A stretch of 63,085 bases of DNA. Origin: a virus. Numbering within the stretch: position 1 is the stretch's first letter; every line of letters starts with the position of its first letter. Location of the stretch: positions 1 through 63,085 of the IMG/VR virus record IMGVR_UViG_3300017917_003968; one strand, written 5' to 3'. Positions 38,278 to 56,978 of this stretch are shown here, piece by piece. A program made the translations under genes and the position numbers. Under the pieces are notes generated by a model. That model was given only the letters and a program-made list of their open reading frames with translations, was not told where the DNA came from and did no database searches.

Positions 38278-40713
38278 ATGATAAAAACAGTGATAGCAGT
38301 GTACCCAGGACGTTTTCAACCAATGGGTCGCCATCATTTTGATGCTTATAAGTGGTTAGCTAGTAAATTTGGTAAAGATAAAACATTTATAGCTACATCT
38401 GATAAAGTTGATTTACCAAAAAGTCCGCTTTCTTTTAAAGAGAAAAAAATGATTGCAGATAAATATGGTATTGGCAATCAATTTATACAAGTTAAAAATC
38501 CATATAAAGCAGAAGAAATAACATCTAAATTTGATCCTAATACAACAGCAATAGTGTTTATGGTAGGATCTAAAGATATGCAAGAAGATCCTAGATTTAA
38601 AATAGGAAAATTAAAATCTGGAAAAGACTCATATTTTCAAGTATATGATCCAAAAAAACCACTAGCTCCATATACAGAGCATGGTTATTTAATTGTAGCA
38701 CCACATGTTTCATTAGAAATACCAGGATATGGTGAAATGAGTGGAACAGAAATTAGAAAAGCTTTATCTCAAGATCCAAAACAAAATTCTAAATTATTTA
38801 AGTATATATTTGGATTTGAAGATCCTAAATTACAAGATTTATTATACAAAAAATTTACACAAAATAAAAAAATTAATGAATCTATAATAAAAATATTAGT
38901 AGAGGGTATTAGCAAGAATTTATTAAATGAAGGAGGTCATGTTTTTAAAACTGAAGATGGTAAAGAAGCTACTCAAAGAATAAATAAAATAGATGTAATA
39001 CCTACTGTAAAATATTTAGAGAAAATAACTAATTTAGATTTAGTAGATAATATGTTAGGAACTACTGGTAAAAAAGACAGTAGTGGAGATTTAGATTTAG
39101 CTGTTGATGAAAATGAAATTTCAAAAAATGATCTAGTATCTTTATTGTCTAAGTATTTTTCAAAAAACGATATTAAAAAAATTGGTACTAATGTACATTT
39201 AAAAACTCCAATTAATGGAGATCCTAAAAATGGTTATGTACAATCTGACTTTATGTTTGGAGATAGAGACTGGATGAAATTTAGTATGAAAGGAGGTGCT
39301 GATAATTCTAAATTTAAAGGAGTAGATCGTCATTTATTAATGTCATCTATTGCAAAAGCATTAGGATTAAAGTGGTCTTATATAAATGGATTAGTAGATA
39401 GACAAACAAATAAAGTTATTACAAAAAATCCTGATGAAATTGCTAAAATATTATTAGGAGATAAAGCAACTAGTGAAGATTTATCTAATGTAGAATCAAT
39501 AATCAATATTATAAAAAATAAACCCAATTATAAAAACTTAATAGCACAAGCAGAAACTGATTTTGATAAAAAAGGATTAACATTAAATGAAGAACTAATA
39601 AATGAAGCTGAAGCAAGAATACAACACCCAGAAGATTTAACATATTGGGAAGGTAGTAAAGGTGCAAAAAGAGCTCTAGCAACTATGTTATCTATAATTA
39701 AAGATCCAAATAAAGCATCAGTAAAATGGGATGGTAGTCCTGCAGTAATATTTGGTGTAGGAGATGATGGTAAATTTATTCTAACAGATAAATCTGGTTT
39801 TACTGCAAAAGGATATAATGGTAAAGCAACTTCTGGTGAAGAATTAAAGAATATGTTTTTAAATAGAGGAAAAAAATCTGGTAAACCTATTTCTAAAGAA
39901 TATATTAATTTTGCAAATAGTATGGGCAATATTTTTAACATATTTAAAAATTCTTTTCCAAAAAACTTAAAAGGATTTTTTAAAGGAGATCTATTATATC
40001 AATCTACCCCAGAGATAGAAAATGATCACTATGTATTTAAACCAAATATAACTACATATTCAGTATTAGCTGATAGTGATATGGGAAAAAAAATTGGAGC
40101 AAGTAAAGTAGGTGTTGTATTACATAGATATATTTCTACAGAAGGTCAAGAAATTCCTATAAAAAATATATCAGACTATAATTTTAACACTAATTCTGGA
40201 TTATTTGTAGTACCCCCAGTATTTATACAAAGTCCTCCCAAAGTTAATATTAGTAATATATCAAATATTAAAAATCAAATATCAGCTAATGCAAAAGACA
40301 TAGATACACTATTAGACAAATCTAAATTAGTATCTATGAAAATTTCAAATCTTCCTGATTTATTATATAAATTTACAAATTCAAAAGTAGATAATTTAAA
40401 ATCATTAACTAGTAGAGAATTTATTGAGTTTATAAAAAAAGAATCGTCTTTATCTGAAATTAAAAAAAATAATATTATAGAATATTGTAATAATAATATA
40501 AAATCATTAGATAAATTATTTTTAACAGTACAAGGTATAATAGCAATAAAAGATGATTTAATAAATCAATTAGATTCTCAAGATTTAGGAGTTAAATCAT
40601 CTATAGGTGATCTAGCAGGAGGGGAGGGCTATGTAATTTCAGATCCTAGAGGAGACATAAAATTAGTTAATAGATCAGGATTTACTGCAGCAAATAGAGC
40701 TATTCAAAGATAA
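38278..40713 (+). CDS. Three-domain nucleotidyltransferase/ligase-like fusion protein
   Basis: An 811-residue chain. Domain 1 (1-165): NMNAT/cytidylyltransferase type, with YPGRFQPMGRHHFDAY (9-24, a degenerate HxGH) and MSGTEIRKAL (154-163, the SxTxxR motif). Domain 2 (about 225-400): polymerase-beta-type nucleotidyltransferase, with SSGDLDLAVD (268-277, two Asp) and SDFMF (third Asp, D324). Domain 3 (about 444-811): DUF6267-like with covalent ligase-type motifs, namely KWDG (483-486, nucleotide-binding Lys), FFKGDLLY (567-574), EGYVI (783-787) and IKLVNR (794-799). Helical linkers contain L-N-E (216-218) and I-N-E (441-443), possible sites for the prohead protease. The substrate is unknown; nucleic-acid end modification, ligation or repair is plausible. 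Confidence 0.8.
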   Translation: MIKTVIAVYPGRFQPMGRHHFDAYKWLASKFGKDKTFIATSDKVDLPKSPLSFKEKKMIADKYGIGNQFIQVKNPYKAEEITSKFDPNTTAIVFMVGSKDMQEDPRFKIGKLKSGKDSYFQVYDPKKPLAPYTEHGYLIVAPHVSLEIPGYGEMSGTEIRKALSQDPKQNSKLFKYIFGFEDPKLQDLLYKKFTQNKKINESIIKILVEGISKNLLNEGGHVFKTEDGKEATQRINKIDVIPTVKYLEKITNLDLVDNMLGTTGKKDSSGDLDLAVDENEISKNDLVSLLSKYFSKNDIKKIGTNVHLKTPINGDPKNGYVQSDFMFGDRDWMKFSMKGGADNSKFKGVDRHLLMSSIAKALGLKWSYINGLVDRQTNKVITKNPDEIAKILLGDKATSEDLSNVESIINIIKNKPNYKNLIAQAETDFDKKGLTLNEELINEAEARIQHPEDLTYWEGSKGAKRALATMLSIIKDPNKASVKWDGSPAVIFGVGDDGKFILTDKSGFTAKGYNGKATSGEELKNMFLNRGKKSGKPISKEYINFANSMGNIFNIFKNSFPKNLKGFFKGDLLYQSTPEIENDHYVFKPNITTYSVLADSDMGKKIGASKVGVVLHRYISTEGQEIPIKNISDYNFNTNSGLFVVPPVFIQSPPKVNISNISNIKNQISANAKDIDTLLDKSKLVSMKISNLPDLLYKFTNSKVDNLKSLTSREFIEFIKKESSLSEIKKNNIIEYCNNNIKSLDKLFLTVQGIIAIKDDLINQLDSQDLGVKSSIGDLAGGEGYVISDPRGDIKLVNRSGFTAANRAIQR

Positions 40714-40724
40714 TAATATAATAT

Positions 40725-41141
40725 ATGGAACAAGATAAGAAACAACAAATTATAAATGAATTTATTGATTTTTGTAAACAAAAATTAGAAATAGCTCATT
40801 TACCTAATATAGAATTTATAACAGATATAAAATGGGTTACTGAAAATCGTAGTTTTGGAGGTTATAATCCATATTATAAAACTTTAACAGTATATATTAA
40901 TAATAGAAATTTAGCAGATATATTAAGAACTTTATCACATGAATTAGTTCATCATAAACAAAATGAATTAGGTCAACTTACAAGTGATAATGATGGAAAT
41001 ACTGGATCAGACATAGAAAATGAAGCAAACTCAGTATCAGGAATAATAATGAGAGAGTTTGGCCAAAAAAATAATAAAATTTACGAAAATAAACAAATAA
41101 TAAAACAATTATTATTACTAGAATTACAAAATAAATCATAA
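40725..41141 (+). CDS. HExxH metallopeptidase-like protein (138 aa)
   Basis: A 138-residue protein containing TLSHELVHHKQNELGQL, a HELVH zinc-protease signature (HExxH) with a helix that follows. A nearby Glu in IENEANSVSGIIMREF could be the third zinc ligand, as in minimal Zn-metallopeptidase or SprT-like proteins. It could cleave a phage or host protein, or be a non-catalytic relic. From memory such genes recur next to DUF6267 genes in T4-like marine phages. It lies 11 nt after the three-domain protein. Confidence 0.7.
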   Translation: MEQDKKQQIINEFIDFCKQKLEIAHLPNIEFITDIKWVTENRSFGGYNPYYKTLTVYINNRNLADILRTLSHELVHHKQNELGQLTSDNDGNTGSDIENEANSVSGIIMREFGQKNNKIYENKQIIKQLLLLELQNKS

Positions 41142-43704: not shown

Positions 43705-45462
43705 ATGAATAATAAAAAAGTGGATAATAATATATTAAAGGGTATACTTTTACAAGAGTTTAGTGAAACTTTTGAAGAGAATCCTATGGCATTTATTCTT
43801 AATAAGTATCAAGGTCTTAAAAAAACTCTTGAATATTTAATGACTCCATCTTTTGGAGAATATGTTACTGCAATATATGTAGTAGCACCAAAACCAACTA
43901 CATTTAAAATTGTCTTACATAATGGACAGTTTTTCTTTTTACAATTTATGGGTAAAGCTTATCAGGCAACTATCCAAGGTAAAAATTATTATTTAATGAC
44001 AATTGGTGAGAAAGAAAGAGCTATGGTAGCGCTTTCTAGATTACTAAGATTTGGAAATCCATTAAAAACAAAAGGTCCTGAAGGAGCAGAACAAGCTACT
44101 AGAGGAGCAGAAGGACCAGATAGTGAATTAGGAGCAGAGTCAACACCAGAAGAAACCTCAGAAACATCGCCAGAAGAATTAGCAGAAATATCAAATATAG
44201 AAAACAAAATGAAAACAACTAATATACAAGAGATTAAAATATTAGAATCACTATTATTAAAAGAAGCAGCTGGAGCAGAGTCTACGGCTGCAGAACAAGT
44301 CATAGTATTATTAATAAATAATAAACCTAATATAACGAATATAGAAAGTATGTCAGAATTTTTATCTTCTGAAGATCCAGATGCTATGTTTCTTGTTTCT
44401 TATTATAACAAATATATGAAAAAATCTGGTATGCCAATTGAAAAATTGTACTTTAATGCAATAACTAAATTACCAGATACATCAAATGCTGAACAATTAG
44501 GTAAAAATCAATATGAAACAACTCAAGATTGGAGAAATTTTGGAGGTATTAAAAAAGTAACATCTAAAACAGATATTGCAACTTCTGCTGCAAAGTATTC
44601 TGTAAAAAATGGAAATACAGCTGTTAGAGTATTAGATGCATCAGTTCCTCAAGCAACAGCTTTAATTAATTATACTATAAATAAATTAAATTATGATGAA
44701 GAAATTAAAGTTGAAATTGGAAAAAGTGTAAATAGATTAAAAAAATTATCTAAAGAAAGTTCTTTTAAATTAAGTAGAATATATAAAGGAAAAAAATATG
44801 ATAAAAAAGGTTTAGGTGAAATAAATAATAAAGCACTACAACAAGTAATTGCTGAATTTGAAAAAAATACTGATGATTTAAATAAAACTGTTGATAAGAT
44901 ATTTAAAAAAGCACAACAAAATCCAAAATTCAATCAAACATTTATATATGAATCTATAACAGGAGAAGGGATGCTTAGCCCAGGATCTATAGGATCAGCA
45001 GATAAAATATTAACATTTGAAAAATATTTTGCAGATTTTAAAGTAATTCCAATGCAAACAGCATCTAAAAAAATATCAAGTGCATATATAGCCCCTAAAT
45101 TTGGAACTAAAACATCTGGAAGTAGAATAGCAAAAACATTACAGCAAGGTTATAAAGAAAAGCCAGTAAAAGAAGAATTACAAGAAATTATAAATGAATT
45201 TAATAAAACTTTAATACTACAAGAGAAATTTGAATCTAAAAAAGTATTATTAGAAGCAAATATAATACAAAAAGGAGCAGATTATATTAAAAATAAATTT
45301 AAAGAATTAATAGATAGATTATCTCAATTTTTTACTAATTTAATTGAAAAAATAATAGAATTTGCAAAAGAATCTTATAATAAAGCCCTTAGTTTATTTG
45401 GTATTGAAGTAAAAGTTGAATCTTTTTCTTATGACGCAACTATGACATATAATGAATTATAA
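43705..45462 (+). CDS. Large hypothetical protein with acidic linker (585 aa)
   Basis: A 585-residue protein in a head-gene setting. Residues 1-120 form a beta/alpha domain with a hydrophobic core (GEYVTAIYVVAPKPTTFKIVLHN). Residues about 125-165 are a low-complexity acidic/Pro/Glu/Thr linker (EETSETSPEELAE). A long Lys-rich alpha/beta part follows, and the C-terminal coiled-coil-like helix (YIKNKFKELIDRLSQFFTNLIEKII) is followed by a short tail. A putative prohead-protease site LKE|A occurs at about residues 190-193 (LLLKEAAGAES). It may be an internal head or packaged protein. The antisense frames are shadows. Confidence 0.6.
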   Translation: MNNKKVDNNILKGILLQEFSETFEENPMAFILNKYQGLKKTLEYLMTPSFGEYVTAIYVVAPKPTTFKIVLHNGQFFFLQFMGKAYQATIQGKNYYLMTIGEKERAMVALSRLLRFGNPLKTKGPEGAEQATRGAEGPDSELGAESTPEETSETSPEELAEISNIENKMKTTNIQEIKILESLLLKEAAGAESTAAEQVIVLLINNKPNITNIESMSEFLSSEDPDAMFLVSYYNKYMKKSGMPIEKLYFNAITKLPDTSNAEQLGKNQYETTQDWRNFGGIKKVTSKTDIATSAAKYSVKNGNTAVRVLDASVPQATALINYTINKLNYDEEIKVEIGKSVNRLKKLSKESSFKLSRIYKGKKYDKKGLGEINNKALQQVIAEFEKNTDDLNKTVDKIFKKAQQNPKFNQTFIYESITGEGMLSPGSIGSADKILTFEKYFADFKVIPMQTASKKISSAYIAPKFGTKTSGSRIAKTLQQGYKEKPVKEELQEIINEFNKTLILQEKFESKKVLLEANIIQKGADYIKNKFKELIDRLSQFFTNLIEKIIEFAKESYNKALSLFGIEVKVESFSYDATMTYNEL

Positions 45463-45808: not shown

Positions 45809-46501
45809 ATGAGTAAGTTATTTATTTCTATTTTATCCGGAGTATTAATCGGATTAGTTATTTGGTATACATTTCTGTATAAACCAGAAAGTTTTAATAC
45901 AAAACCATATGAATCTAAAATAGATTCTTTACAAAAAAAAGTTGATTCATTTTTATTAAAAAATGATAGTTTATCAAATTCAATTAAATTAACAGAGGAA
46001 AGTAATTTATTTTTAGCTAAAAAAAATCAAGAGTTAAAAATTAAAGTTAGTAAACTAAAGTATAAAACAATAGTAGAAAAACCTGAAATAAAATATACGC
46101 CTACACAAGTAGATAGTTTTTTTAAGGAAAAATATCCTGCAGAATATAAAAAATACTCAATAGATACTACAAAATTACCAATAGAAGTATCAAAATCTAT
46201 TGTATCTGATATAAAAGAATGTGAAGTTAATAAAAATGTCATACTAATACAAGATACAATTATTAATAATCTAGATAGTTTAGTTATTGGTAAAGATTCT
46301 GTTATAACATTATTAAAAGATAAAGATCTAAATAATCAAAATATTATAAAAACTCAAAAAGATCAAACTGATAATTATAAAATTTTAGTAGCTGGATTAA
46401 AAGATGAGATTAAGTTTAAAGATAAAAAATTAAAATTTCAAAAAATAGAAAGAATAATTATGGGTATTTTTATAATTGGTCTTTTTTTAGGAACTAGATA
46501 A
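45809..46501 (+). CDS. Membrane protein with N- and C-terminal TM helices and coiled coil (230 aa)
   Basis: A 230-residue protein. The N-terminal SKLFISILSGVLIGLVIWYTFLYK is a transmembrane helix, the middle ~170 residues are a charged coiled-coil-like region (SKIDSLQKKVDSFLLKNDSLSNSIKL), and the C-terminus IERIIMGIFIIGLFLGT is a second membrane helix. The two-helix hairpin with a long periplasmic-type coiled coil resembles unimolecular spanin-like or envelope-bridging proteins, but no lysis motif is present. Its TAA overlaps the ATG of the terminase gene (TAATG), so the two are coupled. Confidence 0.65.
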   Translation: MSKLFISILSGVLIGLVIWYTFLYKPESFNTKPYESKIDSLQKKVDSFLLKNDSLSNSIKLTEESNLFLAKKNQELKIKVSKLKYKTIVEKPEIKYTPTQVDSFFKEKYPAEYKKYSIDTTKLPIEVSKSIVSDIKECEVNKNVILIQDTIINNLDSLVIGKDSVITLLKDKDLNNQNIIKTQKDQTDNYKILVAGLKDEIKFKDKKLKFQKIERIIMGIFIIGLFLGTR

Positions 46502-48096
46502 TGGCTGAACAACAGATAAATATAAAAGATAGAATAAAAGAGGAGTTTGTAAAATGTGCAACAGATCCTGTGTACTTTATGAAGAAGTATTACATGATCC
46601 AGCATCCTAAAAGAGGTAGACAGCTATTTGATTTATATCCATTTCAAGAAAAAGTATTGAGATTATTTCAAAAAAATGATTATTCAATAATTAATAAATC
46701 TAGACAGTTAGGTATTTCTACCTTAGTATCCGCATATTCTTTATGGTTAATGCTATTTAATAAGGATAAAAACATTCTTGTTATTGCAACAAAACAAGAG
46801 ACTGCAAAAAATATGGTAACCAAAGTAAGATTTGCTTATCAAAATTTACCATCGTGGTTAAGAATTGCAGCATCTGAAGATAATAGGTTAAGTTTAAGAC
46901 TAACAAATGGATCTCAAGTAAAAGCAGTTTCTGCCGCTGGTGATGCTGGTCGTTCTGAAGCTGTATCATTATTAGTAATAGATGAGGCTGCTTTTATTGA
47001 CAATATTGAAACTATATTTACAGCTGCACAACAAACATTAGCAACTGGAGGAGGTTGTATAGCCTTATCAACTCCAAATGGTGTTGGTAACTGGTTTCAT
47101 AAAACATATATAGTTGCTCAAGAAAAGAAAAATAAGTTTTTACCCATATCTTTACCTTGGACAGTACATCCAGAAAGAGATCAAACTTGGAGAGATGATC
47201 AAGATGTAATATTAGGAAAAAGAAACGCGGCCCAAGAGTGTGATTGTAACTTTGCAACATCAGGAAATACTGTAATAGAACCAGAAATATTAACATGGTA
47301 TGAAGATAATATGGTAGATGATCCAATAGAGCGCCGTGGACTAGATAAAGCATTTTGGATATGGGAATATGCAGATCCAGTAAAATACTATGCTATAATA
47401 GCCGACGTTGCTCGTGGTGATGGTAATGACTATTCTGCATTTCATGTAATTGATATAGAATCACTAACTCAGGTTGCTGAATATAAATCACAAGTTGATA
47501 CTAGAGATTTTGCAAATATATTACTTAGTGTTGGATCTGAATATAATAATGCATTATTAGTAGTTGAGAATGCAAATATTGGTTGGGACGTTATACAAAC
47601 AATAATTGAGCGAGGATATACTAATATTCATTATAGTTATAAACAAGATCAAGGTATGGATTTTAGTAAATACGTTGATAAATATAATAGAGCTGACGGA
47701 TTAGTACCAGGATTTTCAACCACAGAAAAAACAAGACCGTTAGTTATCGAAAGAATGAGAGATTTTATAGAAAATAAAGTAGTAATTATAAAATCTGTTA
47801 GACTTTTAGAAGAGCTTAGATCTTTTATATGGAAAAATGGTAGAGCACAAGCAATGCAAAGCTATAATGATGACTTAGTTATGTCATTTGCAATCGCTAT
47901 GTATTTAAGAGAAACTTCTTTAAGATTTAAAAAAACTGCAGATAGTTTAACATATGCTGCATTAGATGGATTTACTAGAACGCAAGATACATCAATAGCA
48001 TATAATTCAAATAATCAATATAATCAAAATCCATGGATAATGAATGTTAATAGCCCACAAGGCCAAGAATTTCAAGATCTTACATGGTTAATTTAA
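46501..48096 (+). CDS. gp17: Terminase large subunit (packaging ATPase/nuclease), gp17-like
   Basis: A 531-residue terminase. ATPase: Walker A SRQLGIST (residues 67-74) and Walker B SLLVIDEAAFI with DE at 161-162, followed by an ALSTPNG coupling motif (188-194). Nuclease: IIADVARGDGNDYSAFHVID with Asp at 302, VVENANIG with Glu at about 356 and NDDLVMSFAIAMYL near 458 give the acidic RNase-H-like triad. It packages concatemeric DNA through the portal and makes the headful cut. Length is in the T4-like range (gp17 is 610). No intron or insertion is visible. It overlaps the upstream stop and is 14 nt before the portal gene. Confidence 0.95.
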   Translation: MAEQQINIKDRIKEEFVKCATDPVYFMKKYYMIQHPKRGRQLFDLYPFQEKVLRLFQKNDYSIINKSRQLGISTLVSAYSLWLMLFNKDKNILVIATKQETAKNMVTKVRFAYQNLPSWLRIAASEDNRLSLRLTNGSQVKAVSAAGDAGRSEAVSLLVIDEAAFIDNIETIFTAAQQTLATGGGCIALSTPNGVGNWFHKTYIVAQEKKNKFLPISLPWTVHPERDQTWRDDQDVILGKRNAAQECDCNFATSGNTVIEPEILTWYEDNMVDDPIERRGLDKAFWIWEYADPVKYYAIIADVARGDGNDYSAFHVIDIESLTQVAEYKSQVDTRDFANILLSVGSEYNNALLVVENANIGWDVIQTIIERGYTNIHYSYKQDQGMDFSKYVDKYNRADGLVPGFSTTEKTRPLVIERMRDFIENKVVIIKSVRLLEELRSFIWKNGRAQAMQSYNDDLVMSFAIAMYLRETSLRFKKTADSLTYAALDGFTRTQDTSIAYNSNNQYNQNPWIMNVNSPQGQEFQDLTWLI

Positions 48097-53326: not shown

Positions 53327-53950
53327 ATGCCAAAAGAATTATTAATAGAATATAGTTTATTTAAACCAACAACATCATTAAATGAGTCTAGACGTCTTAC
53401 TAATGGTAATATGGTAGTGTCTGGTTTAGTTCAAGCGTGTGATAAACCAAATGCAAATAGACGAATCTATCCTTATCCTATTCTTTCTAGCCAAGTTGAA
53501 AAATATATATTAGGTCCAATAAAAGAAAATAGAGCATTAGGTGAATTAGATCACCCAGAATCTAGTATAATAAACTTAAAAAATGTTAGTCATAATATAG
53601 TTAAGTTATGGTGGGAAGGCAAAAATCTTTATGGAGATATTGAAGTACTTCCAACCCCATCTGGAAATATTCTAAAAGAATTATTTAAAAATAATATAAC
53701 AGTAGGTATATCATCAAGAGCTATGGGAACAACTACTCCAATTGGAGAAGGTTTAGTACAAGTTGAAGATGATTTAGATTTAATTTGTTGGGATTTTGTG
53801 TCAACTCCATCAACATTTGGAGCATATATGAAACCAATAGGAGGATTAAATGAATCTGTTAATTATAATATAGCAAAACCACAAACAAGAATTAATCAAT
53901 TAATATCAGATATTATATGTTCACAATCTGGTGTATGTTGTATTAATTAA
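53327..53950 (+). CDS. gp21: Prohead core protease, gp21-like
   Basis: A 206-residue prohead protease (T4 gp21 is 212). The catalytic His is in RALGELDHPESS (H76) and the catalytic Ser in ITVGISSRAMGT (S129 or S130). The pattern 'G-LDHP ... G-SSR--G' is the S77-family hallmark, followed by VQVEDDLDLICWDFVSTPS, the conserved 'L-ITG-D-V--PS' equivalent. It cleaves scaffold and capsid N-termini during maturation, at L/I-x-E sites in T4. Placement between portal and scaffold genes is canonical. Confidence 0.95.
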   Translation: MPKELLIEYSLFKPTTSLNESRRLTNGNMVVSGLVQACDKPNANRRIYPYPILSSQVEKYILGPIKENRALGELDHPESSIINLKNVSHNIVKLWWEGKNLYGDIEVLPTPSGNILKELFKNNITVGISSRAMGTTTPIGEGLVQVEDDLDLICWDFVSTPSTFGAYMKPIGGLNESVNYNIAKPQTRINQLISDIICSQSGVCCIN

Positions 53951-55328: not shown

Positions 55329-56978
55329 ATGGCAAACTTAGTACAATCATTATTGGCTGAATCTGCTCAAACTGCATTCTCTGATCAACATGGTGTTGCT
55401 CAGCGTCTTGCAAAGAAGTGGGCTAAGTCTGGTCTTTTAGAAGGCCTTCAAGATTACGACAAAAATAATATCGCCGTAATGCTTGAATCACAAGCAAAAC
55501 AATTAGTAGTTGAGCAATCAAATACAAATGGTGGTTTAAACTCAGGTGGATCAACTTTCACTCCAGGTACTGGTGAACAATGGGCTGGTGTAGCTTTACC
55601 GTTAGTTCGTAAGATCTTCGGTCAAATTGCATCTAAAGAGTTCGTTTCTGTTCAACCTATGAACTTACCTGCAGGTTTAGTATTCTATCTTGATTTCCAA
55701 TATGGACAAACAAAAAATCCTTTTACTGCTGGAGATTCTTTATATGGTACTCCAAGTGCAAACTTTGGTAACTTAGCTGAAGGTTCACTTTACGGTGCTG
55801 GTAAATTTGGATATTCATTAAATCAATTCTCTGCTTCTGCAACTATTTTAGCAGGTGGTGCAGTAACTGCATCATTTAAGAATGTTGATTTTAATGCTGA
55901 TTTATCTGCTTCTGTTGTTGCTGGTGAAATTAAAAAACTTTCTGTTCCTACAAGTTCATTAACTGCATTCAATGTTGATGGCGTACGTGCTTTCACTATT
56001 GTTTCTGGATCTGTAACTGTTGCTAGAAACTTACAAGCTTATACAACTTTAAATGGTGGTAACGTTGATTTCTTTGTTACTGCATCTACTGCTGAATTAG
56101 CTGCAACATCATCTTTCACCGTGTTCTATAATAAAGCTACAGACTTTAATGCACGTGGAGATTTCGAAGATAGAACAGGTAACCCATCAGTTCCTAACTC
56201 ATTATCTTCTACATCAATTGTTATCCCTGATATCAATGTACAGATGAAGAGCCAAACCATTTCTGCTAAAACTCGTAAGTTAAAAGCACAATGGACTCCA
56301 GAATTTGCACAAGATTTAAATGCTTACCATTCATTAGATGCTGAAGCTGAATTAACTGGTCTTCTTTCTGAGCATATCTCTTTAGAGATTGATCTTGAAG
56401 TATTAGATATGTTAATCCAAAATGCTCCATCAATTGAATATTGGTCAGCAAAAGTTGGTAACCAAATTAACACTGCTAAAACAGGATTTGATAGTAACAC
56501 TAATGGTGTTTTCTATACACAAATGACTTGGTTCCAAACTTTAGGTATTAAATTACAAAAAATATCTAACATTATTCACCAAAGAACATTACGTGGTGGT
56601 GCAAACTTTATGGTTGTTTCTCCTTCTGTAGCTACTATCCTTGAATCAATCCCTGGATTTGCAGCTGATACTGACGGTGCAGCAGATACTATGAAATATG
56701 CATTCGGTGTACAAAAAATCGGTCAATTAAATAGCCGTTATAAGGTGTATAAAAACCCTTACATGCTTGAGAATGTTATCTTAATGGGATTCCGTGGTAA
56801 CCAATTCTTAGAGTGTGGTGCTGTATACTCTCCATATGTTCCATTAATCATGACTCCATTAGTGTACGATCCAAACACATTTACTCCGCGCAAGGGAATA
56901 ATGACAAGATATGCTATGACTATGGTTCGTCCAGAATATTATGGCTTAGTTGTTGTTGCAGACTTAAACGTAGTGTAA
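55329..56978 (+). CDS. gp23: Major capsid protein, gp23-like
   Basis: A 549-residue major capsid protein (T4 gp23 is 521). QWAGVALPLVRKIFGQIASKEFVSVQPMNLPAGLVFYLDFQYG is the conserved N-arm of gp23-like proteins, and KTRKLKAQWTPEFAQDLNAYHSLDAEAELTGLLSEHISLEIDLEVL is the T4-like signature. Residues 150-290 hold a Ser/Thr/Val-rich insertion typical of the I-domain. A likely maturation site lies near VVE62, close to T4's residue 65. Codons are noticeably less AT-biased (GGT, CGT), as expected for the most abundant protein. It is followed by a strong terminator. Confidence 0.97.
   Translation: MANLVQSLLAESAQTAFSDQHGVAQRLAKKWAKSGLLEGLQDYDKNNIAVMLESQAKQLVVEQSNTNGGLNSGGSTFTPGTGEQWAGVALPLVRKIFGQIASKEFVSVQPMNLPAGLVFYLDFQYGQTKNPFTAGDSLYGTPSANFGNLAEGSLYGAGKFGYSLNQFSASATILAGGAVTASFKNVDFNADLSASVVAGEIKKLSVPTSSLTAFNVDGVRAFTIVSGSVTVARNLQAYTTLNGGNVDFFVTASTAELAATSSFTVFYNKATDFNARGDFEDRTGNPSVPNSLSSTSIVIPDINVQMKSQTISAKTRKLKAQWTPEFAQDLNAYHSLDAEAELTGLLSEHISLEIDLEVLDMLIQNAPSIEYWSAKVGNQINTAKTGFDSNTNGVFYTQMTWFQTLGIKLQKISNIIHQRTLRGGANFMVVSPSVATILESIPGFAADTDGAADTMKYAFGVQKIGQLNSRYKVYKNPYMLENVILMGFRGNQFLECGAVYSPYVPLIMTPLVYDPNTFTPRKGIMTRYAMTMVRPEYYGLVVVADLNVV

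Follow-up and report, generated by a model that had tools for sequence, protein, structure and literature searches.

A three-enzyme chain with prohead-protease-type joints as a predicted head-cargo polyprotein of a T4-like phage

Three domains in one reading frame

We analyzed a 63,085-nucleotide stretch of viral DNA (IMG/VR record IMGVR_UViG_3300017917_003968, hereafter the window) and found an open reading frame that probably encodes a head-cargo polyprotein of a T4-like phage, a chain predicted to enter the prohead, to be cut there, and to reach the host together with the DNA. The frame (38278..40713, + strand; 811 aa, 90.6 kDa) is uninterrupted and encodes three domains, each of which has independent relatives in other phages. 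Direct support comes from two folds, conserved catalytic residues, conserved motifs at the joints between the domains, and a gp21-type protease encoded in the same genome. Counting against the cargo reading are the missing targeting peptide, the shortness of the L-x-E motif, and the many cyanophage ligases that carry no such site.

All the motifs named in an earlier note on this DNA, which was made from the letters alone, are present in the chain. In the first two domains these are GRFQPMGRHH (residue 11), SGTEIR (155), SSGDLDLAVD (268), and QSDFM (322); in the third, they are the Lys483 motif KWDG, FFKGDLLY (567), EGYVI (783), and IKLVNR (794). Searching phage records with tblastn matched residues 3–220 to Microcystis phage Mel-JY01 and jumbo phage LR756508, residues ~216–404 to Sinorhizobium phage Phosso, Agrobacterium phage Atu_ph07, Pseudomonas phage PA5oct, and their relatives, and residues ~447–811 mainly to cyanophages. 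Scans of IMG/VR with alignment queries recovered hundreds of relatives, and the complete three-domain architecture is shared with seven non-redundant fusions (<90% identity); alignment queries were required for this, as a single-sequence scan returned only a near-identical copy. A single-sequence search against solved structures likewise gave only a marginal match to PPAT. No peptidase domain was found in the chain with Pfam.

Folds and catalytic residues of the three modules

Module 1, together with the spacer that follows it (38278..38931, + strand; residues 1–218, or 1–201 without the spacer), is an NMNAT-like nucleotidyltransferase of the HIGH superfamily. Among solved structures, its profile matched the NMNAT 2qjt (E = 8e-4) and PPATs (E = 0.0015 and above), and Pfam CTP_transf_like exceeds its cutoff in relatives. 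Judged by these profiles, the module appears to fit the nucleotidyltransferase superfamily rather than NMNAT as such. The SxTxxR motif is kept as SGTEIR. In this clade, the HxGH motif (window positions 38308–38337) is altered to GRHH while SGTxIR is retained; LR756508 still has HRGH at the corresponding position. The presence of GRHH in place of HxGH puts NAD+ synthesis by module 1 in doubt.

Module 2 (38932..39606, + strand; residues 219–443, 25.1 kDa) is a pol-beta-superfamily nucleotidyltransferase (NTase) with a family-X-like palm and thumb. Module 3 (39607..40710, + strand; residues 444–811, 40.7 kDa) is a covalent-ligase domain that corresponds to Pfam DUF6267, placed by Pfam in the C-terminal part of the chain; we encountered no mention of DUF6267 in the open-access literature searched. 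Fold comparison was needed for these two modules because their sequence profiles found no useful solved relatives: the NTase profile detected no solved structure related by sequence, nor did Pfam assign an NTase family to module 2. Matches of the ligase profile among solved structures were unrelated helical proteins and were rejected.

The AlphaFold model of residues 219–443 (pLDDT 92.6) matched DNA polymerases lambda, beta, and mu (Foldseek E = 5.7e-5), with a VIA Z of 10.9 and an rmsd of 3.4 over 172 residues against polymerase lambda. All the NTases compared, from those of jumbo phages to that of this virus, keep the GDxD pair and the third Asp unchanged. The 225 residues of the module cover only positions 375–580 of polymerase lambda, and since the lyase and fingers domains are missing, we do not class the module as a polymerase. 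For residues 444–811 (predicted structure, pLDDT 92.6), the best Foldseek match was weak (an archaeal RNA ligase, E = 0.033), and the best 50 VIA matches were without exception RNA or DNA ligases, at modest scores: Naegleria RNA ligase had a Z of 6.8 (the top value; rmsd 4.0 over 176 residues), T. brucei REL1 6.5, DNA ligase IV 6.3, and T4 Rnl2 5.8. In all 54 ligase sequences compared, motif I (KxDG) retains its Lys (Lys483 here), Asp, and Gly, motif IV its EG, and motif V its Lys.

The earlier note had proposed three nucleotidyl-transfer folds in one chain and had made its case depend on structure prediction and on the conservation of Lys483. Both the NTase and the ligase folds were recovered, and Lys483 proved invariant; the proposal thus holds for these two modules by structure models and conserved residues, and for the NMNAT-type fold by profile only.

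Protease-type sites at both domain borders

The T4 prohead protease gp21 cleaves after L/I-x-E (PMC9026906), and both domain borders obey this rule by motif match, with LNE218|GG at joint 1 and INE443|A at joint 2. Joint 1 (38872..38931, + strand) holds the predicted sites INE201/S, LVE209/G, and LNE218/GG, and joint 2 (39583..39606, + strand) holds LNE438/E and INE443/A (cut at the slash), so that INE201, LVE209, and LNE438 are extra gp21-type motifs within the spacers. The same arrangement recurs in all seven non-redundant fusions, which are interrelated and do not count as seven independent events: joint 1 reads [LIF]xE|GG, joint 2 reads [LIF]xE followed by A or S shortly upstream of RIQHPED, and paired sites bracket the spacers in every case. 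Across the seven fusions, the joint zones make up 42 of 5742 positions yet hold 14 of the 24 such motifs. When 25-aa linkers were shuffled, a site was regained in 3–7% of trials per joint, figures that presume independent sequences and, as the sequences are related, can neither be multiplied nor read as a probability. The chain of this virus contains four [LI]NE motifs, every one of them in a joint. An N-terminal capsid-targeting propeptide is absent: the chain opens with the NMNAT-like domain, and the first [LIF]xE[AGS] lies at residue 199.

Module order and partners differ among phages

Standalone relatives of the NTase were examined at their N-termini. Among 21 that were non-redundant, [LIFV]xE stands directly before GG in 15, and in five, the start codon Met lies immediately at GG or SG. 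In the cultured phage immuto, the NTase, which matches the NTase profile at E = 2e-18, begins with MGGNVF. We found no relatives of the NTase in GTDB genome contigs. Many standalone ligases open with peptides resembling the capsid-targeting sequence (CTS) of T4, such as MRAFEFLTE|A, MYSFKQYLNE|A, and MRFLEILTE|A. The exact site is absent in 51 of 82, mainly in the cyanophage groups that begin with MAKNTHLEH and MFSFKGFIT, and, as a control, a loose [LIFMV]xE was present within residues 4–20 of 42% of unrelated ORFs. The weight of the argument lies with the joints and the NTase starts, not with single motifs.

The modules are also rearranged among phages. A ligase gene immediately follows the standalone NTase in 42 of 62 loci; at two loci (L158 and L159), NTase, ligase, and NMNAT-like proteins are encoded by three adjacent genes, and at a third (L153), the ligase precedes the NTase and the two meet at FME|GG. 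In many relatives, the NMNAT-like module is joined through LLxE|GG to a different ligase-like type (KIDG..EGIV). The cultured phage Mel-JY01 has an NMNAT-ligase chain. Locus L043 combines NMNAT, NTase, and this other kind of ligase with an LLxE|GG-type site at both joints, and locus L052 has a different middle piece between LLKE|S and LLRE|GG.

Several further arrangements were observed. At L052 (4275-6545), L079 (6001-8193), and L088 (6001-8637), domains other than the NTase fill the space between the NMNAT-like and ligase modules. At L064 (5989-8463) and L081 (6001-8715), the reading frame continues through a homing-endonuclease-like insert of zinc-finger or HNH appearance, placed precisely at the EGG joint between the NMNAT-like and ligase modules. 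In the jumbo phages Phosso, Atu_ph07, and PA5oct (L004 4806-6858, L005 5043-6840, and L006 3306-6615), the NTase adjoins or lies near a ligase-like gene of a different type (KLDG/KIDG ... EG), and the pairing of NTase and ligase thus extends past DUF6267. The ligase-like neighbor of the Atu_ph07 NTase matched Pfam RNA_ligase at E = 0.002, under the curated cutoff.

These comparisons bear on the all-in-one end-modification enzyme suggested in the earlier note. The chain would then be an uncut multifunctional protein made during infection, whose active sites share one substrate, for example to add nucleotides to RNA or DNA ends and seal them, and whose L-x-E linkers are flexible joints. Every catalytic residue is kept within one chain, there is no N-terminal targeting peptide, and the NTase and ligase are constant neighbors, as a shared pathway would predict. 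However, L-x-E is conserved precisely at the domain borders even though the spacers vary, standalone NTases start at the cut position, module order and partners differ among phages, and relatives of two of the modules have been detected in virions (see below). We consider the uncut enzyme unlikely, and favor the polyprotein on account of the conserved protease-type joints and the separate proteins that begin exactly there.

Genomic setting and the predicted protease

The predicted cutter, a gp21-type prohead (head maturation) protease, is encoded 13 kb downstream of the polyprotein ORF (53327..53950, + strand; phrog_207, E = 9e-47). Its only two LNE|S motifs lie near its ends, at residues 18 and 174. 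These flank its catalytic domain, and immuto and its relative have LTE|S and LNE|G at the same places. The two motifs are likely self-processing sites, judging from their positions; T4 gp21 is itself suspected of processing its own ends (PMC9026906). The head and packaging block of the window is marked by the large terminase (46501..48096, + strand; phrog_2, E = 3e-49) and the major capsid protein (55329..56978, + strand; phrog_138, E = 3e-68). In both this virus and Mel-JY01, a few kb separate the NMNAT-containing chain from the large terminase downstream of it, and in LR756508 the chain likewise precedes a terminase-like ORF by a few kb.

The gene next to the polyprotein (40725..41141, + strand) encodes a small metallopeptidase-like protein with a BLASTP match (E = 4e-12) to gp088 of Flavobacterium phage immuto, in which the relative is a module within a polyprotein. 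Immuto gp088 (L250 3122-5845; 907 aa) combines an NTase-like region with an NMNAT-like domain and the metallopeptidase, all separated by LxE|G/A motifs, and it occupies the same place, after the primase. By its domain makeup and motifs, it is another candidate cargo polyprotein.

A 585-aa protein encoded near the head genes (43705-45462) has LKE|A (~residue 187) and LLE|A (~residue 517) between its regions and may be a second cut polyprotein. It is weakly similar to Melnitz gp15, whose N-terminus is MQGFKTFLSE|A, and its sole matches in phage records are in immuto. Mel-JY01 and immuto also encode prohead proteases with 46% identity to that of this virus, which together with the immuto matches makes a Bacteroidota host plausible.

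Relatives of the modules in virions

Evidence from virions is available for relatives of two modules. The PA5oct relative of the NTase carries the annotation ‘structural protein, ESI-MS/MS’. For the NMNAT-like module, the cyanophage cytidylyltransferase T4-GC190 was found in S-SM1 virions (PMC3037559), and the cytidylyltransferase gp154 was found in virions of S-CREM2, whose authors concede possible co-purification and propose a metabolic role for the virion NMNAT (PMC10665884). The N-terminus of gp154 is MKNFSSFLTE|A, and its similarity to module 1 is only distant. In S-PM2, the T4-GC190 cytidylyltransferase gene adjoins the DUF6267-related gene T4-GC71. A DUF6267-type ligase was not among the virion proteins reported in the open-access literature searched.

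We also scored S-CREM2 N-termini over record positions 1-42115 and 103579-149501. A template built on the T4 targeting positions matched six of 15 detected non-shell proteins and four of 126 undetected ones (p = 8e-5, with a regular expression that was fixed after viewing the N-termini); a looser N-terminal pattern gave weak enrichment (p = 0.04). The six detected proteins that match are gp6 (SAM hydrolase), gp12 (Cas9-like), gp13, gp14 (kinase), gp136, and gp154. The virion-detected Cas9-like gp12 (L249 7704-10313) has the targeting-like RFASFMAE|A near its N-terminus and is possibly a head-packaged nuclease.

The annotation of the PA5oct relative could alternatively indicate a structural or scaffold-like internal protein in which the enzyme domains are inactive, and the altered HxGH of module 1 would suit this. 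Such a role is highly improbable, given that the catalytic residues of the NTase and ligase are invariant across very distant phages.

Proposed loading, cutting, and delivery

According to the cargo-polyprotein reading, the chain would first be loaded into the prohead core. In place of an N-terminal targeting peptide, loading would depend on the internal spacers, and the amphipathic spacers are the obvious candidates. The gp21-type protease would then cut after E218 and E443, and also after E201, E209, and E438 in the spacers, to yield an NMNAT-like enzyme, a family-X-like NTase, and a covalent ligase (~25, 25, and 41 kDa), the NTase starting with GGHVF and the ligase with AEARI. All three enzymes would remain packaged alongside the DNA until infection, when they would pass into the host and act early and separately.

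Nucleic-acid repair and counter-defence are possible roles for the released enzymes, as are modification of protein or tRNA and NAD+ counter-defence. The palm-thumb NTase and the ligase, as constant neighbors, suggest the filling and sealing of nucleic-acid ends, and the NMNAT-like domain suggests a supply of nucleotides or NAD+. We tentatively propose, with less than even confidence, that the NTase and ligase fill and seal damaged ends or gaps while the NMNAT-like enzyme supports nucleotide or NAD+ supply. The NAD-tagging of ends put forward in the earlier note drew no support from this analysis.

A possible, though somewhat unlikely, alternative retains the cargo polyprotein but assigns its enzymes to modifying host proteins or tRNA, or to restoring NAD+ against defence, and not to end repair. 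Pol-beta NTases are among the predicted injected effectors of polyvalent proteins (PMC5512222), and NAD+ restoration is a known phage counter-defence (PMC12774641); the metabolic role suggested by the S-CREM2 authors would also agree with it. On the other hand, nucleic-acid repair better fits an NTase whose fold is nearest to family-X polymerases and whose commonest partner is a ligase, and the altered HxGH motif casts doubt on NAD+ synthesis.

Returning to cargo delivery with end repair, a wider generalization can be drawn, which we regard as rather doubtful. Cargo polyproteins cut by the prohead protease may be a general, modular way of loading several head enzymes at a fixed ratio in T4-like phages of Bacteroidota and other aquatic hosts. 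In such a scheme, the X-type gap-filling polymerase, ligase, and NAD-making enzyme of this chain would be a ready-made set, for repair or counter-defence, that serves the incoming genome or damaged host RNA straight after delivery.

Comparison with known systems

If the cargo reading is correct, a naturally modular polyprotein cut by the maturation protease would show how phages load sets of cargo enzymes. It would also explain the occurrence of DUF6267 beside NMNAT-like genes in many cyanophages, and would make DUF6267 proteins candidate virion ligases open to testing. For T4, internal head proteins are known individually, and their targeting tags serve as delivery tools. The parts of the proposal are already known, from T4 targeting-sequence cargo, polyvalent proteins, and cyanophage virion cytidylyltransferases. 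Several cargo enzymes in one chain with conserved prohead-protease joints were not found in the open-access literature searched.

The closest parallel is with T4 IPI-IPIII and Alt (PMC9026906, PMC5694885), which share cutting after L/I-x-E by a gp21-type protease of the same genome, loading into the head, and injection, all predicted here. Alt, a capsid-targeting-sequence cargo, is cut at both ends (PMC5694885). IPI-IPIII and Alt differ in being single proteins or enzymes with a terminal propeptide, whereas the chain described here joins three enzymes through internal sites and has no N-terminal targeting peptide.

The polyvalent proteins of phages and conjugative elements, such as DarA and DdrB of phage P1, also carry many effector domains per polypeptide, which are proposed to travel with the DNA and to be split apart by proteolysis (Iyer et al. 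2017; PMC5512222). Most have their own metallopeptidase domain, whereas in the present system cutting is predicted to be done by the head maturation protease, and the metallopeptidase-like gene is separate. The combination of NMNAT-like, NTase, and ligase domains is not in the polyvalent-protein set in the passages of that study considered here.

The cyanophage virion cytidylyltransferases (T4-GC190 of S-SM1 and gp154 of S-CREM2) are NMNAT homologues that resemble the present system in their detection in virions, in the CTS-like N-terminus in S-CREM2, and in the position of the gene beside DUF6267 in S-PM2. They differ in being separate genes with a canonical GRxNPPHxGH-type motif and only distant similarity to module 1.

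Module 3 shares motifs I, III, IV, and V, in order, with RNA and ATP-dependent DNA ligases (Naegleria Rnl, T. brucei REL1, T4 Rnl2, and DNA ligase IV), but differs from them by a long helical stretch inserted ahead of motif IV and by the absence of a C-terminal OB domain, and its Z scores are modest. Module 2, similarly, has the palm-thumb fold and the SGDxD and third Asp of the family-X DNA polymerases lambda, beta, and mu, but not their lyase and fingers part, and no match to them at the sequence level.
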